A DNA stretch of 64,000 nucleotides from contig NZ_CP126980.1 of NCBI RefSeq assembly GCF_030252345.1, positions 7,889,501-7,953,500 on the forward strand. Direction: 5' to 3'. Positions within the stretch are counted from its first letter, which is position 1. Each line of letters opens with the position of its first letter. This document shows positions 6,750 through 64,000 of the stretch, in pieces. The position numbers and the translations under genes are program-made. Under the pieces are notes generated by a model. That model saw nothing but the letters and a program-made list of their open reading frames with translations, was not told the DNA's origin and made no database searches. The stretch is from Actinoplanes oblitus. GTDB lineage: Bacteria; Actinomycetota; Actinomycetes; Mycobacteriales; Micromonosporaceae.

Positions 6750-6758
6750 GCCGCGACG

Positions 6759-7421: not shown

Positions 7422-7468
7422 GACGGGTAGCCCCCTCCCGTGGTATTGATGGATCTTAGTGGGCTACG

Positions 7469-9954: not shown

Positions 9955-9996
9955 GGTGCGCTCGGGGACGGTGCTCCGGGCGTACCGTGAATCGGT

Positions 9997-21172: not shown

Positions 21173-21250
21173 CGATCCTCCCCGTTTCTCCGGGCAGGTT
21201 ACGCGCTCGACGCCCGCCGTGGTGCCCGCAAGTTCCGGCCTGTGGACAAC

Positions 21251-21904
21251 TCAGCCGCGAGCCCAGGTCGCGGCGCCGTCGACCAGGTGCAGTTCCCGGT
21301 CGCAGACCGCTGCCGCCTCCGGGTCGTGGGTGGCCAGCACCACCGTCGCGCCGCGGTCCGCCTCGGCGCGGAGCAGCTCCAGGACCTTCTGCCGGTTGGC
21401 CGCGTCCAGCTCGCTGGTCACCTCGTCGGCCAGCACCACCTCGCCGCGCAGGGCCAGTCCCCGGGCGATCGCGGCGCGCTGCTGCTGGCCGCCGGACAGC
21501 TCCTCGATCAGCTGGTTGGCCTGCCCGGCCAGGCCGACGGCGGCCAGCGCGTCGGCGGTCCGGCGGCGGGCGTCGGCGGGCGATCCGCCGGTCGCGATCA
21601 CCGCCACCGAGATGTTCTCGGCGGCGGTGAGGATGGCGGCCAGCCCGTTCTCCTGCGGGATCAGCACCACCCCGCGGCCGACCGCGGCGTCCCGGTCGCC
21701 GAGTGGGTCACCGGCCACCGTCACCGCGCCCGAGCGGGGTGCCAGCAACCCGGCCATCGCGCTCAGCAGAGTCGTCTTGCCGGCTCCGGAAGTTCCGGTG
21801 ATCGCGAGCACCTCCCCGGGGCGCGCGCTGACTGTCACGTCGCGCAGCACCGGTTCACCCGTCCCGTACCCCAGATCCACCGACGCCAGGTCCACCGAAG
21901 TCAT
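21251..21904 (-). CDS. ABC transporter ATP-binding protein, MacB/LolD type
   Basis: A 217-residue ATPase that powers the FtsX permeases around it. Walker A is GTSGAGKTT (Lys43), Q-loop IPQENG, signature LSGGQQQRAAIARGLAL, Walker B VVLADEVTSELD and H-loop LATHD. All catalytic residues are present. The ATG overlaps the upstream permease stop by 4 bp (ATGA). It is the only ATPase for four permease genes, two upstream and two downstream, so it probably serves both pairs. Confidence 0.92.
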   Translation of the reverse strand: MTSVDLASVDLGYGTGEPVLRDVTVSARPGEVLAITGTSGAGKTTLLSAMAGLLAPRSGAVTVAGDPLGDRDAAVGRGVVLIPQENGLAAILTAAENISVAVIATGGSPADARRRTADALAAVGLAGQANQLIEELSGGQQQRAAIARGLALRGEVVLADEVTSELDAANRQKVLELLRAEADRGATVVLATHDPEAAAVCDRELHLVDGAATWARG

Positions 21905-24900: not shown

Positions 24901-24951
24901 GACCGCCTGGCCGCGGCGCCGCCAGACCATGGCGAGGACGAGGCCGGTCAC
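21901..24951 (-). CDS. FtsX-type ABC permease, type B, copy 2
   Basis: A 1016-residue permease with the same layout as 15252-18182: N-terminal helix (TLALLAMLAVASAVAAPAYLIA), outer domain with FRQGVCDHLTLRAGRCP, a membrane block, second outer domain with LCQGGCRLNGIG, and three C-terminal helices. It shares long stretches with copy 1, such as AAPAYLIAADRAVAAGQ. It overlaps its type-A partner upstream and the ATPase downstream by 4 bp each, which means translational coupling. Confidence 0.88.
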   Translation of the reverse strand: MTGLVLAMVWRRRGQAVTLALLAMLAVASAVAAPAYLIAADRAVAAGQISTAAPGELGLSIAASLNPRAGADPLAPPPLDFTTVAAALVDLPGFDYVYATEYPAVGIEPSLEFASRMVFRQGVCDHLTLRAGRCPAGEGELLLGERTAARLGLRPGDPVTLTGARFNDDAQTPGYVPAAVPQRLTVVGTYTIRDAGEAYWGSHGYFTATPGRGPGEPVFTLMATVAAMDHPGSDVSIDGTAGPAALDVDRLGDLRAGVDRLGDTAAKLGSGVQLSTGLPGLLDRIDAGRAAARQLVPVLAVPLVLLACFSIFLAVGYGAEGRQDELAVVALRGARWWTRWWLATGESLVAVLAGAVAGCLAGQLLVNVVAASRFPGVGVDPGWSSLRYAPLAAVAAVAAAVAAQHRQLLSPVSTLLRRNPARRGRRVLITEAVVVVLAVVAGLQLALSNGSLTGLGLFAPALLILAFALVAARLLVPVLTRGAARALRRGRPGTALAGFQLSRRPGAERLFALLVATVGVAGYAACGVDTAARGRDVEAVLGTGAARVLDIGPVYRQQLLAAVRAVDRNGDFAMAVSRLPSGGPAVPSGLAVDSTRLAAVAAWPDGAPAVRAVAARLRPDAAEPAAFAGTDISVAATTTGLGVGRRLRLSLALSSVDGRGDTEVQLGLLQPGRRVYQQRVRLCQGGCRLNGIGLTAVGTALGITGRVVINELGTVNPVATAVPAERLRDPGGWRMAANGRLAADPDGLRIDLDASGGLSAAAWVQPADTPWPLPVAHAGPLPPGAVLTGLDADPLPAVPVAELPAVPLLGRHGTLVDLEYADRVAVDAAEAQLPQVWLNDRAPADIVDRLSARGLTVTGDHRAGLTALRLAAQGPALALWFHLLAAGLAVLLGAGGLVLAAAVDRGRRVEDLTALRVQGLGRRAAGRATLWTYAVLVFAATVVGLLVALGAWALTGWTLPLAGLTPPDLPLPAWPRPGAMLGACGAVAAVLFLVALATGRDLRNRVEAKTVNGRNG

Positions 24952-27941
24952 AGCGCCGCTCGCAGGCGCCGGACGAGCGGCTGAACGGCCAGCCAGCCGG
25001 TCAGGCCGAGCAGGGCGGAAGCGGTCAGCAGGCCGAACCCGAGGGCGAGGCCGCCGAGCACCGGGGGCAGCGGCAGCACGTCCCAGCCGTCGGTGAACGG
25101 CGGCACCCGGGTGCCGGTCAGCGGCCCGGTGAGCAGCGCGGCGAGGGTGCCGCCGAGCAGGCCGGCGAGGATCGGCGCGGCGGTTCCGGCGTACCCGGCG
25201 GCGACCGCCACCCGGGTCGCCAGTCCCTGCACCCGGAGGGCGCGCAACTGGTCACCGGCGCCGCGCCGGTCCACCGCCGCGGCCACCGCGCAGGTGGCCG
25301 CCGCGAGCAGCAGCCCGGCCAGCCCGGCGAGCAGCCCGAATGCGGTGACCGCGGCCGGGCCCTGCCGCCCCAGCTGGGCGAACCGGCCGGCCCGGGTGCT
25401 GTCCCCGGTCACCTGCAGCCCGGCCGCGGTCAGCGCCGCGACCAGGCGGTCCGGCGCGCCGGCCGCCAGCCACACCTGGTACTCGCCCGGCGGCTCGGTG
25501 TCGCCGGTCATCCGGCGCAGCGCCTCCAGGTCGGTGAGCACCCCGGAACGGCCGAGCACCGGCAGCGCCGGCACGCGCCCCCGGATGCTGATCGGTATCG
25601 GACCGGACCCCAGACCGAGGACCGGGTCGTCGAGCTGCCGGGCCTGCGGTCCGGGCCCGGCCAGCACCACCGGCAGCGGCAGCGTGACGTCCGCCGCCCA
25701 GGCCTCCGCGCCGGCCACCGGCAGCATCATCGCGTTCTGGTCGGGGGCCAGGCGCAACACCCCACCGGCGGTGGAGACGTCGAGCGCGGCGCCGTCGCCA
25801 CCGGACCGCCACCGCCGCACATCACCGAGTTCGGCCGGGCCGAGCAGGTCCGCCGCCGGGTTCGCCTGCCACATCTTCCGTACGCCCACCGCACTCCCCC
25901 GCGGCGCCACCTCGGCCGTCACCTCCGGACCGGCGGGCGTGGTCACCGCCCAGCGGACGATCCGGCAGCCGGGCGCCGTCGCGCAGCCCCGCACCGGCGC
26001 GCTGACCTGCTGCTCCCCCGGCCCGAGCACGCCGAACGACACCGTCTCCGGCACGCCGGTCCCGTCCTGCCGCAGGGTGAGCGTGAGCTGCACCGGAGCC
26101 GGACCGTCCCGGCGCACCCGCACGGTCAGCCGGTCACCGGTGACCAGCGGCAACCCCGGCCCGGCGGTCCCGGTCCCGGGCGGTGACACGGCCAGCGGCT
26201 CGCGGTCGGCGACCGCGGCGTACCGTCCGCTGTCCACCGACAGCACCGGCGGGTCGGTGGTGGTGTCGACCACCGCGGCCATCGCGGTTCGGCCGTCCGG
26301 GTCGGCCGCGCGGACCGCGGTGAGCAGGGCGGTCCGGTTCGCCGCCCGCACCCGCAGCACCCGGGGCGCGCCCTGCTCGGCGGCGCCGCGCTCGTCCCGG
26401 GCGACGCGTTCGCCGGACCAGGCGCCGGCCGCGGTGAGGAAGACCGCTACCGCCACCACCAGCAGCGCGACCACCCGATCGGTGCCGGGCTGCCGGGACA
26501 CCCGCAGCGCGGTGAGCCCGGCCGGCAGGTGCCCGCCGCGCACCCAGGCGGCGCCGCCCCGATCCGCGGCCCGGGCCAGCAGCCGGGCCAGCAGCAGCGC
26601 CACCGTCAGCGCGAGCAGCGGCGGGGCGGCGCGGGCCAGCCCGCTGCCGGCGCCACCAGCCCGGGACTGGTAGACGGCGGCGCCGGCCACCGCCACCAGC
26701 AGCAGGTCGACCAGGCCGGACCGCCAGGTCGCGGACGTCGCGGCGCCGGCCCCGCGCAGCAGGTCGGGCACCGGCCGCCGGAGCACCAGCGCCTCCAGCA
26801 CGGCGAGCACGAGCAGGCCGCCGGCCAGCACGGCGGCGACCGCGGCGAGCGACAGCAGCAGCGCCGCCCGCCGGTCGCCCGGGTCGGTGACCGGGCCGGC
26901 CAGCAGCCGGGCCAGCAGATACCCGGCGGGCGCGCCGAGCAGGGCGCCGGCCAGCAGCGGGACCAGATGCTGGCCCCAGACCAGGCGCAGCGTGCCGAGC
27001 CGGGTCGCGCCGCGCAACTTGAGCAGGGCGGCGTCGGCGCGGCGGTCCCGGCCGGTGTAGCGGCCGGCCAGGCCGACAGCGAACCAGGTGAGGACCAGCG
27101 TCTGCACGGCGGCGGTGACCACCCCGTCGCGGATGGTCACCCGGTCCCGGTGCAGGGTGGTGAGCAGGCCGGCGCTGGTGGTGACCAGGCGGACCTTGGC
27201 GGCGGCCAGCCGGGCGTCGGTCTCGCGCAGCTGGGCGGCCAGGTCGAAGCCGCCGGCACCGCGGAAGAGCCGGTCCGGGATCCGGCCGTCGAGGGTGAGC
27301 GTGGGCGACTGGAGCGCCTCGGCGGCGAATGTCGACAGTGGGGTGAACGCCGGGTCGAGTCCCTGGTCCTTGCGGTACAGCGGATCACTCCAGTACGGAC
27401 CGTCCGGTTCGGCGGGCGTGTAGCGGGCCACGACGGTGAGCACCACCGGGACCCGCCCCGGCGTCTCGACCAGGCTGACCCGGTCGCCGAGACCGAGGCC
27501 GAGACGCTGCGCCGCGTCCCGGCTGATCGCCGCCTCACCGGCTCGGCGCGGGCACCGCCCGTCCAGGCCGGCCCGGTCACAGAACTGCTCGCGGAACGCC
27601 GCGGCGAGCACCGGCCGGGTCGCGCCGCCGGCTACGTTCAGGGGCTTGACCAGGCCGAACACCGGCTCGTCGAGGGGCATCGGGAGCATCCGGCGTACCG
27701 AATCCCGGAAGTCCTCCAGGGCCCCGGCGGCGTCGCCACCGGTGAGCGCACCCTGCCTGATGGACAGCATCCGCTGCGCCGCGGGCGCGGCGGCGAGATC
27801 CGCCTCGGCGGCCCGGGCGGTGGCGGCCGCCGCGTACCAGGGCCCGGCGGCGACGACCGCTGTGGCCACGACGGTCAGCGCCAGAATGGTGAGCACCTGC
27901 GCGGTCCTGGTCCGCACGGCACCGAGAACGAGCGCAAGCAT
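24948..27941 (-). CDS. FtsX-type ABC permease, type A, copy 2
   Basis: A 997-residue permease, first gene of the operon, paralogous to 18176-21172 (LVLGAVRTRTAQVLTIL at the start, and shared GLAGRYT.R.RRADAALLKLRG and LRLVWGQHLVPL in the middle). It has ten or so membrane segments and two outer domains with Cys pairs (FCDRAGLDGRCP and CATAPGCRIVRW). The start at 27941 has GGGGTGATG upstream. The promoter must lie in the short stretch before it, right next to the inverted-repeat element at 27971. Confidence 0.88.
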   Translation of the reverse strand: MLALVLGAVRTRTAQVLTILALTVVATAVVAAGPWYAAAATARAAEADLAAAPAAQRMLSIRQGALTGGDAAGALEDFRDSVRRMLPMPLDEPVFGLVKPLNVAGGATRPVLAAAFREQFCDRAGLDGRCPRRAGEAAISRDAAQRLGLGLGDRVSLVETPGRVPVVLTVVARYTPAEPDGPYWSDPLYRKDQGLDPAFTPLSTFAAEALQSPTLTLDGRIPDRLFRGAGGFDLAAQLRETDARLAAAKVRLVTTSAGLLTTLHRDRVTIRDGVVTAAVQTLVLTWFAVGLAGRYTGRDRRADAALLKLRGATRLGTLRLVWGQHLVPLLAGALLGAPAGYLLARLLAGPVTDPGDRRAALLLSLAAVAAVLAGGLLVLAVLEALVLRRPVPDLLRGAGAATSATWRSGLVDLLLVAVAGAAVYQSRAGGAGSGLARAAPPLLALTVALLLARLLARAADRGGAAWVRGGHLPAGLTALRVSRQPGTDRVVALLVVAVAVFLTAAGAWSGERVARDERGAAEQGAPRVLRVRAANRTALLTAVRAADPDGRTAMAAVVDTTTDPPVLSVDSGRYAAVADREPLAVSPPGTGTAGPGLPLVTGDRLTVRVRRDGPAPVQLTLTLRQDGTGVPETVSFGVLGPGEQQVSAPVRGCATAPGCRIVRWAVTTPAGPEVTAEVAPRGSAVGVRKMWQANPAADLLGPAELGDVRRWRSGGDGAALDVSTAGGVLRLAPDQNAMMLPVAGAEAWAADVTLPLPVVLAGPGPQARQLDDPVLGLGSGPIPISIRGRVPALPVLGRSGVLTDLEALRRMTGDTEPPGEYQVWLAAGAPDRLVAALTAAGLQVTGDSTRAGRFAQLGRQGPAAVTAFGLLAGLAGLLLAAATCAVAAAVDRRGAGDQLRALRVQGLATRVAVAAGYAGTAAPILAGLLGGTLAALLTGPLTGTRVPPFTDGWDVLPLPPVLGGLALGFGLLTASALLGLTGWLAVQPLVRRLRAAL

Positions 27942-52384: not shown

Positions 52385-52408
52385 ATGACTGACGGCCGGC
52401 TGCGGTGA
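52385..52408 (+). other. Possible 7-codon leader peptide coupled to the SARP gene
   Basis: ATG ACT GAC GGC CGG CTG CGG TGA encodes MTDGRLR. GGAGGG lies about 7 bp before its ATG, whereas the SARP GTG at 52405 has no good site of its own and overlaps this TGA (GTGA). Translation of the leader may bring ribosomes to the regulator start. Confidence 0.4.
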
Positions 52409-55293
52409 GAGGCTGCCACGGGCCACGGGTCCGTCTCCAGGTCCTCGGGCCGCTGCTCGGCTGGCGCGACGACGAGCAGGTCAGCCTCGGTCCGTTGCGC
52501 CAGCAGGTGGTGCTCGCCGTGCTTGCCCTGAGTGCGAACCGGCCGACCGGCCGCGCCGAGCTGATCGAGGCGGTCTGGGGCGAGTCCACCCCGGCGTACG
52601 CGGTGAATCTCGTCCAGAAGTACGTGTCCGGTCTGCGCCGCGTGCTGGAACCGGTGCGGCCCGGCCACCACCCGTCGCAGGTGCTGTCCTGGACCGACGC
52701 CGGATATCTCCTGTCGTTGCCGCACGGCGCACTCGACCTCGAGGAGTTCGACCGCGGGGTGGCCCGCGCCCGGGCCGCCGTCGCGGAGGGTGACCTGAAA
52801 GCGGCGTCCCGATCGCTGCACGCCGCCCTCGAGCTGTGGCGCGGCCCCGCTCTCAACGGCTTGTCGAGCCCGTTGCTGGACGCCGAGCGCAACCGCCTGG
52901 CCGAGCGGCGGATCAGCGCGCTGGAGGAGCGCATCGAGATCGACCTGGCTCTGGGCGATCGCCGTGACCTGGCCGAGGAGGCCGGCCGCCTGGTGGCCGA
53001 GCACCCCCTGCGGGAACGGCTGCGGGCCTTGCTCATGCGGGCGCTGTACCAGCAGGGACGGCAGGGCGAAGCGCTCGCCGCCTTCCGCGCGGCCCGCGAC
53101 CACCTGCGCTCCGAGCTCGGCGTGGAGCCCGCGGCGGAACTGCAGGCGCTGCACAAGCGGATCCTCAACGGCGATCCGGACCTGCTGGCCCCCGGGCCGT
53201 GGCCGCCGCCGGCGCCCGCGCCGGTCTCCCCCCGACCGGACCAGCTCCCCCTCCGCCCGGCCCAGCCGGCACCCCGACCGGCTCAGCTGCCCCACGGGCT
53301 GCCCGAGTTCGTCGGTCGCCGGGCCGAGCTGGACCGCCTCGACGCCCTGGCCGCCAGCGGGCAGAGCGTGATGATCGCGGCCATCACCGGCACCGCCGGT
53401 GTCGGCAAGACCTCACTGGCCGTGCAGTGGGCGCACCGGATCAGCGACCGGTTCCCGGACGGCCAGCTGTACGTGAACCTGCACGGTTTCGAACCGTCCG
53501 GGTCGCTCGCCCGACCGGGCGAGGTGCTGCGCGGCTTCCTCGACGCGCTGGGGGTCGGTGCGCAGCAGATCGCGGGCACGGTCGACGAGTTGGCCGCCCG
53601 CTACCGGAGCCTGCTCGCCGGCCGGCGCCTGCTGCTGGTGCTGGACAACGCCCGCAACACCGAGCAGGTGCACCCGCTGCTGCCCGGGACGCCCGGCTGC
53701 ATGGTCGTGGTGACCAGCCGCAGCCGGCTCGCCGGCCTGGTCGCGGCCGGCGCGGTCCCGGTGACCGTGGACCTGCCGACCGCCGAGGAGGCAGCGGAAC
53801 TGCTGAGCCGCCGGATCGGTCCCGAGCGGGTGGCCACCGAGCCGCAGGCGGCGGCCGCGGTGGTCGCGGCCTGCGCCCGGCTCCCGCTGGCGCTGGCCCT
53901 GGTCGCCTCCAGGGCCGCACCGCACCCGCAGTACCGGCTGTCCGCGCTGGCGGCGGAGCTGCGCCCGGCCCGCGCCGACGTGCTGGACGCGTTCATCGGC
54001 GAGACCGAGAGCACCGACGCGCGGGCCGTCCTGTCCTGGTCGTACCACCAGCTCAGCGACCCGGCGGCCCGGCTGTTCCGGCTGCTCGGGCTGCACCCGG
54101 GACCGGACATCACCGCGCCGGCCGCGGCCAGCCTCGCCGGGGTCCCGGCGCGACAGGCCCGCCGGATGCTGGCCGAACTGTCCGGCGCCCACATGCTCGA
54201 GGAGCACACCCCCGGCCGCTTCGCCTTCCACGACCTCCTGCGGGCGTACGCGGCCGAACAGGTCGAGGAGGAGGAGTCGGCGACCGAGCGGCAGGCGGCG
54301 ACCGAGCGGCTGCTCGACCACTACCTGCACTCCGCGCATGCCGCCGACCGCACCCTGTATCCGTACCGGACGCCGATCATCGTCGGTCCTCCCGGTCCGG
54401 CCGCCACGGTGCTCGCCTTCGCCTCCCCGGACGAGGCGCTGGCCTGGTTCACCGCCGAGCAACCGGTGCTGCTGAACGCTATCGCCCACGCCACCGGGGC
54501 CGGATTCACCGCGTACACCAGCCTTCTCACCTGGACGGTCACCGCGTTCCTCAACTACCAGGGTCAGTTCCACAGCTGGGCCCGGTGCCTGCGGGCGGCC
54601 CTGCTCGCCAGCCGCCAGCTGGGCGACCGGGCCGGCGTGGCGCAGGCCCATCAGCTGCTCAACATCGCCTGCCGTCACCTGGGCCTGATCGCCGAGGCCG
54701 ACACCCACGCCGGGCGCGCGCTCCAGCTGTACGACCAGCTCGGTGACGGGTCCCGCCAGGGCCGGCTGCTGCTCGACATCGCCCGCGGACTGGAACACCG
54801 GGGCGAGTACGAACAGGCCCTGCGGCGGGCCACCCGTGCCCTGTGCCAGTTCCACGACGCCGGCGACCGGATGGGCAAGGCCGACGCGCTGAGCTGGGTC
54901 GGCTGGTACTACAGCCGGCTCGGCGACCACGACGCGGCGATGCGCCACTGTCACGACGCGCTGCGCCTGCACCGCGAGGGCAACTGGCCCGGCCAGGCCG
55001 ACACCTGGGCCATCCTCGGCAACGCCCACCACCACCTCGGTCACTACGACGAGGCACTGAACTCCTATGCGCAGGCGCTCGCCCGGTGGGGTGAGCTCGG
55101 CGACCGCTACGAGGTGGCGATCACCCTGCAGCGCCTCGGCGACACCCAGGAGGCAGCCGGCCGCCTCGACCGGGCCCGGAGCCGATGGCAGCAGGCCCGC
55201 ACGATCTTGGAGGAGCTCGGCCACCCCGACGCCGCACTCCTGCAGGCACGGTTGGACGCTCACGGCGCCGTCGGCGCCGCTAACGAAAGGTGA
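52405..55293 (+). CDS. SARP/AfsR-family regulator with NB-ARC and TPR domains
   Basis: A 962-residue transcriptional activator of natural-product clusters. The winged-helix DNA-binding domain is at ~8-95 and the bacterial transcriptional activation domain (BTAD) at ~100-255 (LDLEEFDRGVARARAAVAEGD, LALGDRRDLAEE). After a Pro-rich linker (265-295) comes the NB-ARC ATPase, with Walker A GTAGVGKT (329-336) and Walker B LLLVLDNAR (~413). TPR repeats fill ~640-960 (YYSRLGDHDAAMRHCHDALRLHREG and similar). It is the first gene of the locus. SARPs bind direct heptamer repeats, and such repeats lie at 57519, ahead of the operon downstream. Confidence 0.92.
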   Translation: MRGCHGPRVRLQVLGPLLGWRDDEQVSLGPLRQQVVLAVLALSANRPTGRAELIEAVWGESTPAYAVNLVQKYVSGLRRVLEPVRPGHHPSQVLSWTDAGYLLSLPHGALDLEEFDRGVARARAAVAEGDLKAASRSLHAALELWRGPALNGLSSPLLDAERNRLAERRISALEERIEIDLALGDRRDLAEEAGRLVAEHPLRERLRALLMRALYQQGRQGEALAAFRAARDHLRSELGVEPAAELQALHKRILNGDPDLLAPGPWPPPAPAPVSPRPDQLPLRPAQPAPRPAQLPHGLPEFVGRRAELDRLDALAASGQSVMIAAITGTAGVGKTSLAVQWAHRISDRFPDGQLYVNLHGFEPSGSLARPGEVLRGFLDALGVGAQQIAGTVDELAARYRSLLAGRRLLLVLDNARNTEQVHPLLPGTPGCMVVVTSRSRLAGLVAAGAVPVTVDLPTAEEAAELLSRRIGPERVATEPQAAAAVVAACARLPLALALVASRAAPHPQYRLSALAAELRPARADVLDAFIGETESTDARAVLSWSYHQLSDPAARLFRLLGLHPGPDITAPAAASLAGVPARQARRMLAELSGAHMLEEHTPGRFAFHDLLRAYAAEQVEEEESATERQAATERLLDHYLHSAHAADRTLYPYRTPIIVGPPGPAATVLAFASPDEALAWFTAEQPVLLNAIAHATGAGFTAYTSLLTWTVTAFLNYQGQFHSWARCLRAALLASRQLGDRAGVAQAHQLLNIACRHLGLIAEADTHAGRALQLYDQLGDGSRQGRLLLDIARGLEHRGEYEQALRRATRALCQFHDAGDRMGKADALSWVGWYYSRLGDHDAAMRHCHDALRLHREGNWPGQADTWAILGNAHHHLGHYDEALNSYAQALARWGELGDRYEVAITLQRLGDTQEAAGRLDRARSRWQQARTILEELGHPDAALLQARLDAHGAVGAANER

Positions 55294-55517
55294 GAAGGTT
55301 GTCACAGAGAGAATCGGAGAAGGACACCGGGAGCACACGCGCCCGGCGGGCCGCTGTCGTCATCCTGCGCGGCCTCGCCGCCGGGGCGGTCCTGAGCGGC
55401 GGGGCCGCCGTGGCCGATCCGGCACCGTCCGTCCACGACCAATTCCAGTCAGCCTTCGTGGCGGGCGCGGCGCAGAGCGACGACGGTCTCAGCCTCCAGA
55501 TCGTTCTGGGGGAGTAA
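55290..55517 (+). CDS. Candidate RiPP precursor peptide (75 residues)
   Basis: GTG 55290 overlaps the SARP stop (GTGA), and the rSAM gene starts 6 bp after its TAA. The N-terminal third is charged (MRRLSQRESEKDTGSTRARR), the middle is hydrophobic (AAVVILRGLAAGAVLSGGAAV) and the C-terminal part (DPAPSVHDQFQSAFVAGAAQSDDGLSLQIVLGE) contains no Cys. Position next to a RiPP-type radical SAM enzyme makes it the candidate substrate. The hydrophobic middle could instead be a signal or membrane segment. It is not AfsS-like although it follows an AfsR-like gene. No known precursor family was recognised. Confidence 0.5.
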   Translation: MRRLSQRESEKDTGSTRARRAAVVILRGLAAGAVLSGGAAVADPAPSVHDQFQSAFVAGAAQSDDGLSLQIVLGE

Positions 55518-55522
55518 CGGCA

Positions 55523-57439
55523 GTGGTCACCGAACTGCCGCTGGTCAGCGGGGACGCCCCGGCCGTCCCCGCGGGTCTCCCCCACCTCGGTGCCGGGCAA
55601 CGGGCGGACTGGCCGGTGGTGCTGGTGGCGATGCCGTTCCTGGAGACCGGCTGGCCCTCCATCCAGATCGGCCTGCTCGCGGCCATCCTGCGGCAGCACG
55701 GCTATCCGGCGCGGACCCTGCACGCGAACCTCGACTTCGCCGCCCGGCTGGGAGCCGACTACTACCACCTCCTGGCCGGGCGCCAGGCCCGGATGGTCGC
55801 GGACTGGCTGTTCTCGCTGGAGGCGTTCGGGTCCGCCGCCCCGGACCCGGACGCCCGGCTGCTGGACGACTACGCCACCGAGCTGGCGGTGCTGGGTGAC
55901 GCCGGCGAGTCGGAGTGGCGCGATCGGCTGCTGCGGGTCCGGCACGAGGACACGCCGGCCTACCTGGACGCGCTCGCCGCCGACCCGGTCTTCCACGGCG
56001 TCCGGGCGGTCGGGTTCACCACCACGTTCCAGCAGAACTCCGCGTCGTTCGCCCTGGCGCGCCGGCTCAAGCAGCGCTACCCCGGCCTGGTCACCATCTT
56101 CGGCGGCGCGAACTTCGACGGCGAGATGGGCCCGGAATGGGTCCGGGCGGTGGACTGCGTCGACATGGCAGTGGTCGGGGAGGCCGACACCGCCCTCCCC
56201 CGGCTGCTGGACTGCCTGGTCGCCGGGGCCAGCCCGGGCACCGTCCCGGGTGTGGTGTACCGGGACGGCGGCGACGTGGTGATCACGCCGCCGGCCCCGC
56301 CGCTCCGTCACCTGGACGACCACCCGCTGCCGGACTACACCGAGTATTTCGAGCGGGCCGGCCGGCTCGGCGTGCTGCCCCGGACCGGCCCGAGCCCCGT
56401 ACCGATTCCCTTCGAGACCGCTCGCGGCTGCTGGTGGGGTGAGAAGCACCACTGCACCTTCTGCGGGCTCAACGGCTCCAGCATGCAGTTCCGGTCGAAG
56501 TCCCCGCAGCGGGTGGCCGACGAACTGCTCGCCCAGGCCCGCCGGTACCGCAGCTTCCGGTTCCACGGCGTGGACAACATCGTCGACATGGCCTATCTGA
56601 CGGACCTGTTCCCGGTGCTGGCGCGGGCCGGCATCACCCTGGACATCTTCTACGAGGTCAAGGCGAACCTGAACCGCGGTCAGGTCCGCGCGTTGGCCCA
56701 GGGCGGGGTGACCGGGATCCAGCCGGGCATCGAATCGCTGAGCTCGAACGTGCTGCGGCTGATGAACAAGGGGGTCCGCGCCGCGCAGAACGTCAACCTG
56801 CTGCGCTGGGCCGCGTACTACGGCGTCGGGTGCGGCTGGAACATCCTCTGGGGTTTTCCGGGCGAGACCGAACAGGATTACCGCGACCAGGCGGCGGTGC
56901 TGCCGCATCTGGTGCACCTCGCGCCGCCGTCCAGCGCCGGGCGGCTGTGGATCGAGCGGTTCAGCCCGCTGTTCACCGCGTCGCCGACGAAGACCCCGGA
57001 ACAGGCGTACGCCTATGTCTACCCCGCCGAGGTCGACCTGCGCCGGACCGCCTACTTCTTCGAGTACGACCTGCCCGGCGCGCTGCCCGACCACGCCTAC
57101 GACGGCGTACGCCAAGGGGTGGCCGACTGGGTGTCGGCCTGGAACGACGGCGGCCGGCCGACGCTGACTTTCTGGTCGTCGCCGGGACTGGTCCAGATCT
57201 ACGACGGCCGGCGTCCGGGTAGCGAGGGCACCTACACGTTCGAGGGACCGATCGCCGATCTGTACACGCTGTGCAGCGACCGGCCGATCGGCGCGGCCGC
57301 GGCCCACGAACGGCTGGGCGGGCGCCTGTCCCCGGACGAGATCCGCGAGGCGTTCGACGAGTTCCAGCAGCGTGGCCTGATGTTCCTGGACGAGTCGCTG
57401 GCCTTGTCCCTGGCGCTGCCGGCCGGCCCGCCACGCTGA
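55523..57439 (+). CDS. B12-dependent radical SAM enzyme, RiPP C-methyltransferase type
   Basis: A 638-residue enzyme. The N-terminal B12-binding region runs to ~250 (PVVLVAMPFLETGWPSIQIGLLAAILRQHG, TIFGGANFDG, VVGEAD). The radical SAM core has RGCWWGEKHHCTFCGLNG, with Cys303, Cys311 and Cys314 for the 4Fe-4S cluster; this C-x7-C-x2-C form and its flanks are typical of the rSAM_ocin_1 / RiPP maturation C-methyltransferase group. GIQPGIESLSSNVLRLMNKG and GWNILWGFPGE follow. The last ~130 residues resemble that group's C-terminal region. It probably methylates unactivated carbons of a peptide. GTG 55523 follows GGGGGAG. Confidence 0.87.
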   Translation: MVTELPLVSGDAPAVPAGLPHLGAGQRADWPVVLVAMPFLETGWPSIQIGLLAAILRQHGYPARTLHANLDFAARLGADYYHLLAGRQARMVADWLFSLEAFGSAAPDPDARLLDDYATELAVLGDAGESEWRDRLLRVRHEDTPAYLDALAADPVFHGVRAVGFTTTFQQNSASFALARRLKQRYPGLVTIFGGANFDGEMGPEWVRAVDCVDMAVVGEADTALPRLLDCLVAGASPGTVPGVVYRDGGDVVITPPAPPLRHLDDHPLPDYTEYFERAGRLGVLPRTGPSPVPIPFETARGCWWGEKHHCTFCGLNGSSMQFRSKSPQRVADELLAQARRYRSFRFHGVDNIVDMAYLTDLFPVLARAGITLDIFYEVKANLNRGQVRALAQGGVTGIQPGIESLSSNVLRLMNKGVRAAQNVNLLRWAAYYGVGCGWNILWGFPGETEQDYRDQAAVLPHLVHLAPPSSAGRLWIERFSPLFTASPTKTPEQAYAYVYPAEVDLRRTAYFFEYDLPGALPDHAYDGVRQGVADWVSAWNDGGRPTLTFWSSPGLVQIYDGRRPGSEGTYTFEGPIADLYTLCSDRPIGAAAAHERLGGRLSPDEIREAFDEFQQRGLMFLDESLALSLALPAGPPR

Positions 57440-57462
57440 CCTGACGGCCCCATCTCCTCTGC

Positions 57463-57500
57463 CGGCCCCCGCTTCGTCCACCTGGACGAGTCGGGGGCCG
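57463..57500 (+). terminator. Strong hairpin terminator after the radical SAM gene
   Basis: CGGCCCCCG pairs with CGGGGGCCG (57492-57500), and inside it TCGTCCA pairs with TGGACGA, giving a nearly continuous 16-bp stem. It lies 24 bp after the rSAM stop and should separate the transcript from the hydroxylase operon. Confidence 0.7.
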
Positions 57501-57518
57501 TCGTGTGCCCGCGGCCCG

Positions 57519-57572
57519 TTCCAGCCCGAGTTCCCGGTCGCTTCCAGCGGTCCTTCCGGCGGGTGTTCCAGG
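57519..57572 (+). promoter_or_regulatory. SARP-type direct repeat array
   Basis: TTCCAGC (57519), TTCCCGG (57531), TTCCAGC (57542), TTCCGGC (57554) and TTCCAGG (57566) are direct repeats 11-12 bp apart, on one face of the helix. SARPs bind heptamer repeats at such spacing just upstream of -10. The array lies about 100-150 bp before the hydroxylase operon, so the SARP encoded upstream is the natural candidate. Confidence 0.55.
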
Positions 57573-57665
57573 GGCACCCCAGACGATCGGGGTGCGGCGG
57601 TCGAGAGCGGTTCCTCACCGGAACGGGCCGATCGCGGGCACGAGCGATAAGTCGAGGTGAGATGC

Positions 57666-58940
57666 ATGACAGACCATGAGGTCGGCATTCTGGCGATCGG
57701 CGCGGGGCCGGCCAATCTGGCTCTCGCAGTGGCGCTTGAGGACTCCGGCCCGGCGGATCTGGCCGGCAGCACGATGCTGCTGGAGCAGAGCCCGGACATC
57801 AAATGGCAGCGCAATCTCCTGATGCCGTGGGCGCGCAGCCAGGTGTCGTTCCTCAAGGACCTGGTGACGTTGCGCAACCCGCGCAGCCGGTTCTCGTTCC
57901 TCAACTTCCTGCACGAGAGCGGCCGCCTGAACGAGTTCGTCAACATGGGCACCTTCCACCCGTTCCGGTGGGAGCTGTCGGACTATCTGCAGTGGGCCGC
58001 CTCCAACCTGGAGCGGGTACGCATCCGCTACAACGCGCGGGCGTCGGCGATCGAGGCGACCGTCGCCGCCGACGGATCGATCGCCGGCTGGCAGGTCACC
58101 CTGACCGACGGCGACACGATCCGCTGCCGTGACCTGGTCATCGGGGGCGGACGGGATCCGCACATCCCGGAGGTCTTCGGCGCGCTCCCGGCCGACCGGG
58201 TCATCCACAGCACCAAGTTCCAGAGCCGGATCGGCCAGATCCCCGACGACCGGCCGGTCCGGGCGGTGGTCATCGGCGGAGCCCAGAGCTCGGCCGAGAT
58301 GTTCTACGCCATGCACCAGAACCTGCCGATGAGCCAGCTGACCTGGGTGATCCGCTCGGTGGGGCTGCAGAACTATCAGACCAGCAAATTCGTCAACGAA
58401 CTGTTCTTCCCGTCGTTCGTCGACGAGTTCTACTCCAGCGCACCGGAGACCCGGGCCCAGATCCTCGACGAGATGCGCCTGACCAACTACGCCGGGCTCG
58501 CCCCGCCGTTCCTCGACGAGCTGTACACGATGCAGTACCAGCAGAAGTTCGTCGGACCGCACCGCTCGTCGATCCGCCCGATGTGCGAGGTCGTCGGGGC
58601 CACCATGGACGGCGGCGACGTGGTGCTGGACCTGCGCGACCGGACCAGCGGCAAGACCGAGCCGTTGCGCTGCGACGTGGTCCTGCTGGGCACCGGGTAC
58701 GACCAGCGGATGCCCCGGATGATGCGGGACCTGGCCGGCCGGATCGGCCTGGACAGCGTCACGGTCAGCCGGTCCTACCGGGTCGACATCGGCGACTCGG
58801 CCTGGGGTGCGCTGTATCTGCAGGGCTTCAACGAGCAGACCCACGGCATCGCCGATTCGCTGATCAGCGTGCTGGCCCACCGCTCGCAGGACATCCTCGA
58901 CGATCTGCTGGCGCGCCGCGCCGAGCAGCCGGTCTCCTGA
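57666..58940 (+). CDS. L-lysine/L-ornithine N-hydroxylase
   Basis: A 424-residue flavin-dependent monooxygenase that turns the side-chain amine of lysine or ornithine into a hydroxylamine. The FAD motif is IGAGPANLALA (~10-20), followed by LLMPWARSQVSFLKDLVTLRNPRSRFSF (~45-72), the NADPH motif VVIGGAQSSAE (~200) and the C-terminal LQGFNEQTHGIADSLISVLAHRS, all of the SidA/IucD/PvdA family. ATG 57666 follows GAGGTGAG. The next gene overlaps it by one base. No siderophore synthetase follows; the neighbours instead match hydrazine-forming pathways, where the enzyme makes N6-hydroxylysine. Confidence 0.9.
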   Translation: MTDHEVGILAIGAGPANLALAVALEDSGPADLAGSTMLLEQSPDIKWQRNLLMPWARSQVSFLKDLVTLRNPRSRFSFLNFLHESGRLNEFVNMGTFHPFRWELSDYLQWAASNLERVRIRYNARASAIEATVAADGSIAGWQVTLTDGDTIRCRDLVIGGGRDPHIPEVFGALPADRVIHSTKFQSRIGQIPDDRPVRAVVIGGAQSSAEMFYAMHQNLPMSQLTWVIRSVGLQNYQTSKFVNELFFPSFVDEFYSSAPETRAQILDEMRLTNYAGLAPPFLDELYTMQYQQKFVGPHRSSIRPMCEVVGATMDGGDVVLDLRDRTSGKTEPLRCDVVLLGTGYDQRMPRMMRDLAGRIGLDSVTVSRSYRVDIGDSAWGALYLQGFNEQTHGIADSLISVLAHRSQDILDDLLARRAEQPVS

Positions 58941-60478
58941 TGACCGAGCGGCTGATGATCGTCGCGCCCGGCCCGACCGCCAACGGCGATCTGCATCTGG
59001 GCCATCTCGCCGGGCCGTTCCTGGCCGCCGACATCTGCGCCCGGTACGCCCGGGCCGTCGGCCAGGACGTGCTGTTCGGCACCGGGATCCACTCGACGCA
59101 GAACTACATCGTCACCACGGCCCGGCGGCTGAACGAGGTACCGGAGGAGCTGCGCGAGCGCGCCGTCGGGCTGGTCCGCGAAAGCCTCGCCACGCTGCGG
59201 GTCCAGGCCGACGGGTTCGTCACGTTCGACGACCGGTACGTCAAGACGGTCATCACCTTCTTCGAGCGCCTGCACAGCCTGGGCAAACTCCGGCTGCGGC
59301 GGGTCCGCTTCCCGTACGTGGCCCGCACCGGCGAGTACCTCACCGACGCGTACGTCCGCGGCAGCTGCCCGGTGTGCCTCGCCGACGGCTGCGCGGGTCT
59401 GTGCGAAAGCTGCGGTACCTGGGTGGCCTCGGGCGACCTGATCGAGCCGCGGTCCACGCTCGACCCCGGCGACGTGGTGGAGCTGCGCGAGGCGACCGTG
59501 CTGGTGCTCCCGGTCGAGGAGTACCGGGCGGGGCTGACCGCGTACGTCGAGAAGCACGGGTCCACGATGCGGCCGCGACTGGCCCGGATGATGGAGGAGA
59601 TGCTGTCCCGGCCGTTACCGGACTATCCGGTGACGCTGCCGATCTCCTGGGGCATCCCGGCGCCGTTCCCGGAGGTCGCCGGGCAGGTCATCTACTCCGA
59701 TGCCGAGACGATCGCCTGGAGCATGCGGTGCACCGCGCTGGCGGCGGAGGCGCGGGGTGAGGTACCGACCGGCGAGGACGAGCTGTGGGACGCCGACGCC
59801 GACGGCCGGGTGATCTACTTCTTCGGCTCGGACGCCACCTACGCGTTCGTGGTGGTGGGCACCGCGATGCTGTTGGCGCTCGGCGGATACGTCCTGCCCG
59901 AGCAGTTCGTCACCAACGAGTTCTACGAGCTGGACAGCGACAAGTTCTCCACCAGCCGCGGACATCTGGTGACCGGCCGGGAGCTGGCCGCCGAGGTTCC
60001 CCGCGACCTCATCCGCTTCTACCTGGCCTCGACCGGGCCGGAGTTCCAGCGCACCAACTTCACCCGCTCCGCCATGGACCGGGTGACCGGGCAACGGCTG
60101 GTCGAGCCGTGGAACCGGGTCGCCGAGAGGGTCAACGCCCTGGCCGGGCGCGGACCACTTCCGGTGTCGCAGGCCTCTCGGGACCGGGCGCTGCTGATGA
60201 TGCGGCGGTTCGGCGGGGACCTCGCGCCGCGCCGGTTCAGCGTCAGCGCGGCCGCGTTCACCCTGACCGAGCAGCTGTCCCGGCTGGACCGGTGGGAGAC
60301 CGGCGCCGACGACGCCGGCGACTTCTGCCACGAGGTCGAGATGTTCCTGCGGTGCGCCGCGCCGATCCTCGTCGATCTGGCGGAGCAGGCGTTGCCGGAC
60401 ACCACCATTCCGGACCGGCCACGGGCCACCCGGATCACTCCCCGGCCGATGCCGCTGCTCACCCTGTCGGCGGCGTGA
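58940..60478 (+). CDS. Methionyl-tRNA-synthetase-like enzyme, candidate hydrazine-synthetase ligase
   Basis: A 512-residue class I synthetase homologue. It has PTANGDLHLGH (HIGH box, 12-22), the zinc knuckle CPVC...CESC (Cys143, 146, 155 and 158) and KFSTS at 335-339 in place of KMSKS. It lacks an extended anticodon-binding or tRNA-binding extension and is shorter than many MetRS. In Spb40-type hydrazine synthetases this domain joins an amino acid (glycine or glutamate) to N6-hydroxylysine, and a fused cupin forms the N-N bond. No cupin is present here. It is coupled to the hydroxylase upstream (TGATG) and the oxidase downstream (GTGA), so it is not the housekeeping MetRS. Confidence 0.82.
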   Translation: MTERLMIVAPGPTANGDLHLGHLAGPFLAADICARYARAVGQDVLFGTGIHSTQNYIVTTARRLNEVPEELRERAVGLVRESLATLRVQADGFVTFDDRYVKTVITFFERLHSLGKLRLRRVRFPYVARTGEYLTDAYVRGSCPVCLADGCAGLCESCGTWVASGDLIEPRSTLDPGDVVELREATVLVLPVEEYRAGLTAYVEKHGSTMRPRLARMMEEMLSRPLPDYPVTLPISWGIPAPFPEVAGQVIYSDAETIAWSMRCTALAAEARGEVPTGEDELWDADADGRVIYFFGSDATYAFVVVGTAMLLALGGYVLPEQFVTNEFYELDSDKFSTSRGHLVTGRELAAEVPRDLIRFYLASTGPEFQRTNFTRSAMDRVTGQRLVEPWNRVAERVNALAGRGPLPVSQASRDRALLMMRRFGGDLAPRRFSVSAAAFTLTEQLSRLDRWETGADDAGDFCHEVEMFLRCAAPILVDLAEQALPDTTIPDRPRATRITPRPMPLLTLSAA

Positions 60479-61533
60479 CCATCGTGGCCGGGACTCGCCG
60501 GGTGCTCGTCGTCGGTGCCGGGGTGACCGGTCTGCTGACCGCTGTCGCCTGTGCCCGCGCCGGGTACCGGGTGACGGTGCTGGACCGGGGCGGCACCCCG
60601 GATCCCGGGGCCGCCTCGTACGACCAGCACCGCGCGTTCCGGGCGTTCGTCGCCGGCGATCCGCGGGCGACCGGGCAGCTGCTCACGGCCCGCCGTCGCT
60701 GGCGGGAACTGGAGGGTTTGCTCGGCGGCACGTTGTTCCGCCGGGTCGGTGTGGTCACCTGCCGGCCGCGCGACCAGGTGGACGCGCTGGCCGCCGAGGC
60801 GACAGCGGCCGGCGCCGCGGTCGACGTCGTCGACCCGGGCGAACTGCCGCACATGGTCTTTCCGGCCGGCTCGGTGGGTCTGCGGGAACACGGCGCCGGG
60901 GTGCTGCTCGCCGCCCGGGTGTTGCGCGCCGCGGCCCGCTGGCTCGCCGGGCAGGACACCGTACAGCTGTGTCCGGGCCAGGCGGTCTCCTCTGTCGACA
61001 CTCAGGCGGGCCAGGTCCGGCTCGCCTCCGGGCGGGTCCTCGGCGCCGATCTGATCCTGGTGGCGGCCGGCGCCTGGACCCGCGACCTGGTCGACAGCCC
61101 GGTGGTGCTGTACCGGCAGACGATGGTGTACCTGCGCCCGCCGGACGACCTGATGGACTGGTGGAACGGTGCCCCGGCGGCCGGTGGGCTCGGCCCGGAC
61201 CGGCGGGCCTGGCTGTTGCCGTCCGGTGCCGGGACCCTGCTCAAGCTCAGCACGGACGCGGTGTGCCGTGAGGTGAGCACCGTCCGGCCGGACGACCCGG
61301 CGCCTCGGTGGGCGCAGCGGGTGCTCGCCGCCCGGATCGTGCGCGACGCCGGCCGGTACACCGTCGTCGGCGTGAAGGACTGCCACTACGCCGCGGCGGC
61401 GGCCGGCGGCGGGGCGCTGCTCGCCCGGGCCGGCCCGACCGTGTGGTCGCGCGCCGCGTGCGGCGGCAGCGGTTTCACCACGGCGCCGCTGGTCGCCGAC
61501 CGCATCGTCCGGGCCCTGACCGAGGCCCTGTGA
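60475..61533 (+). CDS. DAO-type FAD oxidase, Spb39-like
   Basis: A 352-residue flavoprotein with FAD motif VLVVGAGVTGLLTAVACARAGYRVTVLD at the N-terminus, a middle substrate domain (VYLRPPDDLMDWWNG) and a C-terminal FAD-contact region (AACGGSGFTTAPLVADRIVRAL). The GTG overlaps the MetRS-like stop (GTGA). In the s56-p1 and triacsin pathways a similar oxidase cleaves the lysine side from the N-N adduct, releasing hydrazinoacetic acid and an aldehyde. The gene order here supports the same step; the amino acid attached is not known. Confidence 0.82.
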   Translation: MTIVAGTRRVLVVGAGVTGLLTAVACARAGYRVTVLDRGGTPDPGAASYDQHRAFRAFVAGDPRATGQLLTARRRWRELEGLLGGTLFRRVGVVTCRPRDQVDALAAEATAAGAAVDVVDPGELPHMVFPAGSVGLREHGAGVLLAARVLRAAARWLAGQDTVQLCPGQAVSSVDTQAGQVRLASGRVLGADLILVAAGAWTRDLVDSPVVLYRQTMVYLRPPDDLMDWWNGAPAAGGLGPDRRAWLLPSGAGTLLKLSTDAVCREVSTVRPDDPAPRWAQRVLAARIVRDAGRYTVVGVKDCHYAAAAAGGGALLARAGPTVWSRAACGGSGFTTAPLVADRIVRALTEAL

Positions 61534-61570
61534 AAAGCCCCGTGACCACGAGTCAGACAGGAGCGCACCC

Positions 61571-62833
61571 GTGAGCGGCAACCCACAACTGGGAGTCATC
61601 GCCACCCTGCGAATCACCCCCACCCCGGTCCGGCATCTCCTCGCCGGTGTGTTCATCAACCAGCTCGGTGCGTTCGTCCAGACCTTCCTGGTCCTGTACC
61701 TGGCGTTCCGCGGCCAGTCGGCGGGCGCGGCCGCCCTGTGCCTGGCCGCTTACAGCGTCGGCGCCATCTTCGGCACGATGCTCGGCGGCGAACTCACCCA
61801 CCGCGTCGGCGCGCGGCTGACCATCGTCACCGCGATGGCCGTCGCCGGCCCGACGGTGTGGCTGATCCCGTGGATCACCCACACCGGCGTCCTGCCCGCG
61901 CTGATGGTCGTGGTAGCGCTCGCCGGCCTGGCCACCCAGGCCTACCGCCCCGCCGCCGCGGTGATGATCAGCGACCTCATGCCGGAAGAACACCAGGTGA
62001 TGGCGTTCTCGATGATGCGGACCGCGCTGAACCTCGGAGCCGCCCTCGCACCGCTCATCGCCGCCGGGCTCATCCTCGTCGACTGGGACCTGCTCTACTG
62101 GTTCGACGGCGCCACCGCGCTGCTGTACGCGGCGTTCGCCTTCTTCGTGCTCCCCCGCGCCATCGGTCTGACCCCGGACAGCGAGCCGGAGACCGGCGCG
62201 GCACCGAAAGCCACCGGCCGCGAGGTCTACGCCCTGCTGGTACGCGACAGCAGGTTCCTGTGCTACCTGGCCGCGGTCTTCCTCGGCACGATCGCCTACA
62301 CCCAGTCGACCAGCGCCCTGCCCCTGGCGATCGTGGCCGAGCACTACCCGGCCGCCCTGTACAGCGCGGTCCTGACCGTATCGTCGCTGGTCGTCATCCT
62401 CGCCCAGCTGAAGATCACCACGTACGTCACCCGGCTGCCGAAAACCGTGGCCGTGGGCCTCGGGCACCTGATCGACTCGATCGGGCTGGCGGTGCTCGTC
62501 CTGGCCGCCTGGTGGGGCGGGATCTTCGTCATCGGCGTCGTGCTGTCGGTGGGCGGCCTGATGATCGCCGGCCCGAACATGTTCGCCCATCCCGCCACGT
62601 TCCACCCCGTGGTCAAGGCCCGGTACATCGCCACCATGCAATCGGTCGCCGGGCTCGCCACCACGATCGGGCCGCTGTTCGGCGTCCTCACCTGGCACGC
62701 GCTCGGCAGCCCGTTCTGGCTGCTGTGCGCCCTGATCAACGGCGTCGCCGGGGTCCTCGCCGTCCTCGCGCTGCGCGGCACCGCCGAACCGGCCCCAGCC
62801 CTCGCGACCGAGACCGCAGGAGAGTCCTCATGA
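61571..62833 (+). CDS. MFS transporter, likely product exporter
   Basis: A 420-residue membrane protein with 12 helices, from HLLAGVFINQLGAFVQTFLVLYLAF onward. Motif A-like GGELTHRVGARLT follows helix 2. The C-terminal half begins after a central loop at ~200-220. AGGAG precedes GTG 61571. It is followed by the ATP-grasp gene with a 4-bp overlap (ATGA). In this operon it most likely exports the product and gives self-resistance. Confidence 0.85.
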   Translation: MSGNPQLGVIATLRITPTPVRHLLAGVFINQLGAFVQTFLVLYLAFRGQSAGAAALCLAAYSVGAIFGTMLGGELTHRVGARLTIVTAMAVAGPTVWLIPWITHTGVLPALMVVVALAGLATQAYRPAAAVMISDLMPEEHQVMAFSMMRTALNLGAALAPLIAAGLILVDWDLLYWFDGATALLYAAFAFFVLPRAIGLTPDSEPETGAAPKATGREVYALLVRDSRFLCYLAAVFLGTIAYTQSTSALPLAIVAEHYPAALYSAVLTVSSLVVILAQLKITTYVTRLPKTVAVGLGHLIDSIGLAVLVLAAWWGGIFVIGVVLSVGGLMIAGPNMFAHPATFHPVVKARYIATMQSVAGLATTIGPLFGVLTWHALGSPFWLLCALINGVAGVLAVLALRGTAEPAPALATETAGESS

Positions 62834-64000
62834 GCTTCCCGCCCGAGGCCGGCCGGCCGGTGCTGGTCGTCGGCTACGTCGGCGTCACCCTGGCCGCCGT
62901 CGCCCGCTTCCAGGCGGCCGGTTCGGTCATCTACGTCGAGGAACCCGACGTCATCCGCAAGCGCGCCGTCCGCGCGCACCTCGACGGCGTCCCGTTCGTC
63001 AACGACCTGATCGCCTGGGAGTACCTCCGGCCGGGAGCGGCCGACGAGTTCTTCGACGCCCATCCCGGCCTGGACCCGGTGGCGGTCATCCCGGCCATCG
63101 AATACGCCACCACGTTCGCCGCCCGCCTCAGCGAACGCTACGGCCTCCCCGGCGCGGGCCTGCGGGCCGCCGAGATCATGCGGGACAAGCTCACGCTGCG
63201 CGAGGTGACCCGGGCGGCGGGGATCGTCAACCCGGCCAGTGCCGAGGTCACCGGCCCGGACGACGTGACGGCGTTCCTGGCCGGGCGGACCGGGCCGGTG
63301 GTGCTCAAGCCGGCCAACCGCCAGGCCTCGGTGGGCACCGAGGTGATCCACGATCCGGGTGACGTCGCGGCGGTCTGGGAGCGCTGCGGCCGGCAGGACG
63401 AGGGCATCTTCGTGCCCGACCGGCCGATGGACGTCCGCATGCTGGTCGAGGAGTACGTCGCCGGCGACGAGTACAGCGTCGAGATGCTCGTCCGCGACGG
63501 CGTACCACTGTTCACCAACGTGACGGGCAAGCAGCTGTGCCCGGGGCCGCGGCCGGTGGAGCTGGCCCACGTCGTCCCGGCGGACCTCCCCCCGGAGGTC
63601 GCCGCACTGCTCGGCTCGCACACCACCGGCGTCGTCGCGGCCACCGGTTTCGGCACCGGGATCGTGCACTGCGAATGGATCCTCACGGACGGCACGCCGT
63701 ACCTGGTGGAGTGCGCCGGCCGGCTGCCCGGCGACGGGATCGTCGACCTCATCGCGGCCGCGTACCGGATGGACCTGCTGCGCAGCTACTACGCCTTGAT
63801 GAGCGGGGCCGACGTCACGGCCGGCCTGCCGCGGCGGGCGGCCGGCGGTGCCGCGGTGCACTTCGTGACCGCCGCGCCCGGTCTGGTCGAGCAGGTCAGC
63901 GGGGTCGAGGACGCCCGCGCCGTCGACGGGGTGTTCCTGGTCCAGGTCACCGCCGGGCCCGGGGACCGGGTCCCCGCCCTGCGCAGCTCCTGGGACCGGG
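62830..64000 (+). CDS. ATP-grasp ligase (partial)
   Basis: About 390 residues are visible; the gene runs off the right edge. The N-terminal domain (VLVVGYVGVTLAAVARFQ) is followed by the ATP-grasp fold: VVLKPANRQASVGTEVI (~155-175, lysine and glycine loop), MLVEEYVAGDEYSVEMLV (~210) and CEWILTDGTPYLVECAGRLPGDGI (~275-300, metal-binding residues). It is of the carboxylate-amine ligase type (L-amino acid ligase and similar), forming amide bonds from free acids with ATP. It could join a hydrazino or amino acid to another amino acid. AGGAGAG precedes ATG, which overlaps the MFS stop. Confidence 0.85.
   Translation, partial: MSFPPEAGRPVLVVGYVGVTLAAVARFQAAGSVIYVEEPDVIRKRAVRAHLDGVPFVNDLIAWEYLRPGAADEFFDAHPGLDPVAVIPAIEYATTFAARLSERYGLPGAGLRAAEIMRDKLTLREVTRAAGIVNPASAEVTGPDDVTAFLAGRTGPVVLKPANRQASVGTEVIHDPGDVAAVWERCGRQDEGIFVPDRPMDVRMLVEEYVAGDEYSVEMLVRDGVPLFTNVTGKQLCPGPRPVELAHVVPADLPPEVAALLGSHTTGVVAATGFGTGIVHCEWILTDGTPYLVECAGRLPGDGIVDLIAAAYRMDLLRSYYALMSGADVTAGLPRRAAGGAAVHFVTAAPGLVEQVSGVEDARAVDGVFLVQVTAGPGDRVPALRSSWDR

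Follow-up and report, generated by a model that had tools for sequence, protein, structure and literature searches.

A predicted hydrazine-forming operon of Actinoplanes oblitus that combines a split synthetase with the tryptophan methyltransferase TsrM

The 64,000-nucleotide stretch of the Actinoplanes oblitus genome analysed here (the window; contig NZ_CP126980.1, positions 7,889,501 to 7,953,500) contains the first part of an operon of eleven genes, all on the + strand (57666-71666 in window numbering; genes past the window end at 64000 were read from L009, on the same 9.8-Mb contig), which very probably joins two amino acids by an N-N bond and may yield an undescribed hydrazine-type peptide. 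That an N-N bond is formed we hold with high confidence, a confidence that covers this step and not the later ones. Gene identity, motifs, layout, membership of the PyrN class and co-occurrence were computed, while each reaction is assigned by analogy with studied relatives. The operon opens with a flavin N-hydroxylase of the Lys/Orn family (57666..58940, ATG to TGA, 424 aa), a ligase resembling methionyl-tRNA synthetase (MetRS) and predicted to form an ester (58940..60478, ATG to TGA, 512 aa), and a DAO-family FAD oxidase (60475..61533, GTG start, 352 aa). These are three intact frames, coupled as the initial annotation described them by overlaps of 1 bp (TGATG) and 4 bp. Hydrazine formation, which that annotation favoured, is supported as the best explanation; its attribution to this triad holds insofar as all three enzymes are present, but is incomplete, as the N-N bond itself is made by a cupin (PMC8664883; this and the other published systems are cited from parts of the papers concerned), encoded here outside the window (69553-69969, 138 aa).

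By analogy, the hydroxylase would N-hydroxylate the side-chain amine of lysine (or of ornithine or diaminobutyrate), and the MetRS-like enzyme would activate a second amino acid with ATP, independently of tRNA, and couple it to the N-hydroxy group through an ester bond. A zinc cupin encoded by its own gene would rearrange this unstable ester into the N-N bond, after which the DAO oxidase would cut a C-N bond to release a hydrazine-bearing acid. The two modules of a tandem ATP-grasp ligase may then link the hydrazine unit with further amino acids, probably including 2-methyltryptophan supplied by TsrM; two flavoproteins and a berberine-bridge enzyme would oxidise the product, and a major facilitator superfamily (MFS) protein would export it.

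When named genomes were scanned with the MetRS-like protein as query, 11 loci were returned, in which gene presence was judged by tblastn at E 1e-8: six from Lentzea (two of them from L. aerocolonigenes), the others from Kutzneria, Protofrankia, Actinosynnema, Labedaea and Micromonospora. The Lentzea loci are near copies, and L010 is cut by a contig end. Every one of the 11 carries the hydroxylase, the cupin, a 107-aa protein and one or both of the ligase halves; the MFS gene is found in 10, the HsaA-like flavoproteins in 7 and TsrM in 6. Since the hydroxylase and the MetRS-like gene are paired in 11/11 of these loci and a clear DAO homologue is present in 8/11, the co-location of the triad is not due to chance. 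Its order, which the initial annotation took to be the same, is not a rule: L016-L019 read hydroxylase-cupin-MetRS, and in other loci DAO precedes MetRS. One genome of the same genus (G023) possesses all eleven genes at 91-97% identity. Within the host genus the MetRS-like gene was detected in 13 of 67 genomes (E<=1e-45), accompanied by a hydroxylase within 10 kb in 11/13 and by a DAO-family gene in 11/13 (weak in L081, L082 and G019); the cupin is separate in 11 of these loci and fused in two (L132, L133). In a phylum-wide sample, 78/396 genomes matched the MetRS-like protein at E<=1e-50, a figure that includes housekeeping enzymes (10 of the matches placed in the tree described below are of this kind, the rest not having been sorted one by one). 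G172 (472 bits) and a match in G396 are hydrazine loci as judged by their neighbours, and in both a DAO-type gene adjoins the cupin. The two fused loci differ in content: L132 (G454, 6602-11063) has genes for a hydroxylase, a DAO-family protein and, upstream of a 1083-aa gene, a fusion of cupin, MetRS and carrier domains in the order described for azaserine AzsN (PMC10445470), and L133 (G472, 6630-11090) encodes a fused cupin-MetRS, DAO, a berberine-bridge enzyme and the barrel protein, with no hydroxylase seen in 20 kb.

The MetRS-like protein matches Pfam tRNA-synt_1g (E 1e-60) and displays the motifs HLGH at 19 and KFSTSR at 335, as well as CPVC at 143 and CESC at 155; His19, Gly21, His22 and residues 335-340 are invariant in all 11 aligned MetRS-like proteins, and no match to the Pfam anticodon-binding domain was obtained at E 1e-3. 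Its best match is PyrN. Phylogenetic analysis separated 17 housekeeping MetRS rows from 20 hydrazine-type rows, among them PyrN (by partial sequence) and the window protein, with a support of 100/100, although in this unrooted tree with several long branches the split alone is no proof of a single origin and the PyrN branch itself is weak (86/56). The conserved methionine pocket of housekeeping MetRS is not kept in the window protein, and the pocket residue at position 301, Arg in PyrN, is Phe. The grouping with housekeeping MetRS that the initial annotation named as counter-evidence was therefore not observed, and identity as a housekeeping or misplaced MetRS was rejected on the basis of the tree split and the altered pocket. 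That the gene is a misplaced duplicate or a resistance-type MetRS lying beside an unrelated hydroxylase is compatible with the MetRS ancestry of the protein, yet practically negligible in view of the pocket residues, the best match, the recurring partners and the split, in a tree that comprised no antibiotic-resistance MetRS rows, nor Spb38-40, PyrM or PyrL. Specificity for glycine or glutamate is not readable from the protein, no substrate is assigned, and hydrazinoacetic acid or hydrazinoglutamate is a candidate product only. In the clade of nine proteins that includes the window enzyme, Asp replaces Trp253 and His replaces the amino-binding Asp52, substitutions not seen in the 10 other hydrazine-type rows compared and confounded by ancestry; TsrM is present in 8/9 loci of this clade, the ninth being L010, truncated at its contig end. 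Because of these clade-wide replacements and the presence of TsrM, a bolder sub-reading could be proposed, in which the MetRS-like enzyme itself would activate a tryptophan-like amino acid.

In characterized systems the product of the MetRS-like part is an unstable ester, which the zinc cupin converts to the N-N bond; the two parts may be separate proteins, and a Glu of the cupin is essential (Glu56 in PyrN, Glu69 in RHS1; PMC8664883). The operon's cupin has His64, His66, Glu70 and His105 as predicted zinc ligands, in the HxHx3E pattern of PyrN, and the last three of these residues are invariant in 10/10 members of the cupin family alignment. As HMMER shifts the alignment to RHS1 by one residue at the ligand site, the ligand match rests on motif spacing. 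The nearest solved relatives of the cupin are 4rd7 and plu4264, with RHS1 (5UQP) third at 1.9e-8 (fourth by profile, at 2.4e-13); 4rd7 and plu4264 come from the genera Salinispora and Photorhabdus and are presumably the proteins of the loci listed by Aravind in 2010. The cupin also bears on a rival pathway, in which the MetRS-like ligase would acylate the N-hydroxy amine to a stable, iron-binding hydroxamate with no N-N bond formed. Such an outcome has a precedent in the N-acyl hydroxylamine shunt product that the PyrN MetRS domain gives without a working cupin (PMC8664883), and a siderophore role was considered in the 2010 study (PMC2922099). Nonetheless, we judge it highly improbable: the operon's own cupin retains the essential Glu as well as the other ligands, a cupin is found in all 11 named loci and in the 13 genus loci with a MetRS-like gene, the hydroxylase stands apart from non-hydrazine hydroxylases, and no siderophore synthetase was met among the window genes scanned. 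On this last point, neither non-ribosomal peptide synthetase (NRPS) nor siderophore-synthetase families were found among 30 of the 46 window genes drawn by a simple gene caller (8 scanned at E 1e-3, 17 at E 1e-8 and 5 on the operon side), in line with the initial annotation.

The hydroxylase matches Pfam Lys_Orn_oxgnase (E 8.6e-87). In a quick tree, from which two short pieces were dropped (the second copy in L010, at the contig end, and the split frame of L016), it is placed among 20 hydrazine-locus rows (SH-aLRT 92), within an inner clade of 17 (SH-aLRT 100), and branches apart from the hydroxylases that related genomes encode outside hydrazine loci; the latter we label siderophore-type, their role being unverified. 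A grouping with siderophore enzymes, the second kind of counter-evidence foreseen, was thus not recovered, and siderophore hydroxylase identity was rejected on this quick tree. The enzyme had been called a lysine N-hydroxylase, of which the Lys/Orn family holds and lysine is an assumption: among solved proteins the ornithine hydroxylase PvdA comes nearest (269 bits), ahead of the lysine enzyme MbtG (229) and of KtzI (214). It is accordingly a substantial minority possibility that the proposed pathway operates with ornithine or diaminobutyrate in place of lysine, in which case the DAO step would free a different hydrazine. Published hydrazine systems employ hydroxylases acting on lysine, ornithine-type substrates or diaminobutyrate, Apy11 using diaminobutyrate and Por9/Por11 being linked to an ornithine-type substrate, and Lentzea retains two hydroxylase copies; on the other side, Spb38, Tri26, ForK and PyrM are coupled to lysine-active synthetases (PMC11705231), and family scores do not decide side-chain length. 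The Lentzea paralogues are found in loci L011-L014 and L020, the ligase-adjacent copy being closer to the window gene than the MetRS-adjacent one (SH-aLRT 94, quick tree), and the Protofrankia hydroxylase reads as two frames (L016, 8292-9603; L153 is the same contig).

The third gene of the triad matches Pfam DAO (E 3.7e-28), and its product probably cleaves the hydrazine intermediate, as related enzymes do. Oxidases of the Spb39 and Apy10 types cut the conjugate at different C-N bonds (PMC11705231). The operon continues with the MFS transporter (61571..62833, 420 aa, a family match, with export predicted), the tandem ATP-grasp L-amino-acid ligase (62830..65397, crossing the window end; 855 aa), whose two ligase halves are separate genes in Lentzea and Kutzneria, and, outside the window, two flavoproteins (65402-66592 and 66616-67824) whose best match, with a score under the cut-off, is to HsaA-like monooxygenases. 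In azaserine biosynthesis AzsF, of the acyl-CoA-dehydrogenase type, oxidises a carrier-bound hydrazine to a hydrazone (PMC10445470); by analogy, the DAO enzyme and the two flavoproteins may act like the Spb39/Apy10-type oxidases and AzsF, respectively. The Kutzneria locus has, between its ligase and barrel genes, a gene (L015, 19363-20607) scoring above the Pfam cut-off for tryptophan dioxygenase (55 vs 35 bits) but below that of NCBIfam (56 vs 391 bits).

TsrM (67835-69556) is a member of the TIGR04428 equivalog family (991 bits vs a cut-off of 500) with CX3CX2C at 228, and its Lentzea and Kutzneria counterparts are 70-74% identical to it. Whether it contributes to the same product as the hydrazine genes can be weighed from its distribution. 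In a class-wide sample TsrM occurs in 16/394 genomes, the source included, the other 15 all belonging to one family; none of these 15 has a MetRS-like match at E<=1e-40, in a search run without a positive control and at a cut-off too strict for distant members such as L080, and no hydrazine genes were seen in the three loci read. TsrM as a general partner of hydrazine genes was hence rejected, which leaves its operon position, together with Lentzea and Kutzneria, as the basis for linking it to the same product. That the operon houses two pathways, with one product from the hydrazine genes and another from TsrM, the flavoproteins and a ligase half, is favoured by this pattern and by the similar operons without TsrM in Protofrankia (L016) and G456 (L127). 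We nevertheless consider it unlikely, as TsrM overlaps the cupin gene, and the cupin gene that of the 107-aa protein, by 4 bp each; as within the host genus TsrM occurs in 2/67 genomes, precisely those two with a window-type MetRS-like orthologue; and as Lentzea and Kutzneria retain the combination. In another family, TsrM genes 61-62% identical occur in loci without hydrazine genes (L135-L137), and Kutzneria has a second TsrM gene (L048, 69% identical) with no hydrazine genes in the 18 kb read.

The 107-aa protein (69966-70289) is a putative avidin-like barrel and is followed by the berberine-bridge oxidase gene (70290-71666). A blind search with the barrel protein found a hydrazine locus in G465 that the MetRS-like cut-off had missed; L079-L082, L130-L132 and L134 showed no barrel. 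Among the weak barrel matches, six of 35 were looked at, and L160 and L161, which are not hydrazine loci, hold weak relatives with a DAO-family gene alongside. We tentatively propose, with a confidence a little short of even, that the operon specifies an undescribed, NRPS-free class of peptides bearing a hydrazine (or a derived hydrazone, azo or diazo group) and 2-methyltryptophan, in which the barrel would bind an unstable or toxic N-N intermediate and would represent a dedicated subfamily specific to hydrazine operons.

Several observations weigh against the proposed pathway. The cupin gene lies 9 kb from the MetRS-like gene and is divergently placed in Lentzea and Kutzneria. Three of the 11 named loci have no clear DAO homologue, L017 and L018 showing a weak DAO-family gene (29 and 54 bits) that lies 2-8 kb upstream, and L019 none. 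In two of the 13 genus loci (L130, L133) a profile search found no hydroxylase in the 20 kb read, and three hydrazine-locus hydroxylases (L080, L081, L082) branch outside the clade of the window enzyme. To these are added the higher score of the hydroxylase against PvdA than against MbtG and the missing MetRS-like match in the 15 other TsrM genomes.

Intergenic distances across the eleven genes are only -4 to 37 bp, which points to a single transcript. Upstream, a hairpin with 18-nt arms, 89% complementary (57463..57500, + strand; fold z -3.0), lies 3' of a radical-SAM gene and is the probable end of the upstream transcript, so that the operon would begin 3' of it. No T-tract terminator was found in 54000-64000, and promoter and terminator scans gave 0 promoter-like sites and one terminator-like site, not above chance. 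The radical-SAM gene was excluded from the operon because the hairpin intervenes and no match was seen in the 11 named loci; its product scores 596 bits against the RiPP (ribosomally synthesized and post-translationally modified peptide) C-methyltransferase family TIGR03975 (cut-off 282). Together with a BTAD-type regulator and a 75-aa open reading frame (55290-55517) it forms a possible small RiPP locus (52405-57439), of which G023 retains the regulator and the radical-SAM gene. Beyond the 3' end of the operon stands an opposite-strand gene with bacterial Ig domains. Further upstream, four genes of ~1000 aa occupy the minus strand of very GC-rich DNA (15252-27896; 0.76-0.79), two with weak FtsX matches and two without a match at E 1e-8.

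Natural products with N-N bonds are few and often bioactive. The operon unites a defined system for N-N bond formation with TsrM, a second defined and rare enzyme that supplies a building block, and the product should therefore be traceable with two labels. Named strains of Lentzea (L. aerocolonigenes among them) and of Kutzneria harbour close relatives of the operon, and the barrel offers a new search handle for hydrazine loci. In the openly accessible literature, most subscription papers lying outside the search, we found no paper that reports TsrM together with hydrazine formation, or a hydrazine gene cluster with an avidin-like protein. As far as our searches reach, the association of TsrM and paired amino-acid ligases with the hydrazine trio, and the constant presence of the barrel across this group of loci, appear to be new.

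The N-N chemistry itself is not of a new kind: the trio was already recognised in 2010 (PMC2922099), and experiments on split pairs followed in 2021. Operons with an MtRS paralogue, a cupin and a lysine N6-monooxygenase, together with ATP-grasp ligases and transporters, were described by Aravind in 2010, who listed Salinispora and Photorhabdus as carriers and predicted that the product is a Met-Lys peptide; neither TsrM nor an avidin-like barrel is described in the sections consulted, and the words 'avidin' and 'lipocalin' do not occur in the text of the paper (PMC2922099). With the cupin-MetRS hydrazine synthetases PyrN (pyrazomycin), Spb40 (s56-p1), Tri28 (triacsin) and AzsN/AzaE (azaserine), the operon shares the MetRS-like protein, the zinc-cupin motif and the N-hydroxylase, and its DAO-type oxidase has counterparts in Spb39, Tri27 and AzsM (PMC11705231, PMC10445470). 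Unlike this class, its cupin and MetRS are separate, its pocket differs from that of PyrN, it has no carrier-protein or NRPS gene, and it adds TsrM, the tandem ligase and the putative avidin-like protein. Its flavoproteins belong to the same broad family as the acyl-CoA-dehydrogenase-type hydrazine dehydrogenases AzsF and Tri22, but are HsaA-like by best, sub-cut-off score, in an operon without a carrier protein. The operon's TsrM shares the tryptophan C2-methyltransferase family, the TIGR04428 score and the cysteine motif with KsTsrM and thiostrepton TsrM; it differs in that it stands in a hydrazine operon, with no thiopeptide genes adjacent in the stretch read. Parallels in layout are the RHS1 pair of Rhodococcus jostii and Afn8/Afn9 of albofungin, which likewise combine a stand-alone cupin and MetRS-like gene with a hydroxylase; the RHS1 system uses glutamate and differs in having a saccharopine-dehydrogenase-type gene, and in the published portions consulted neither is described with TsrM.

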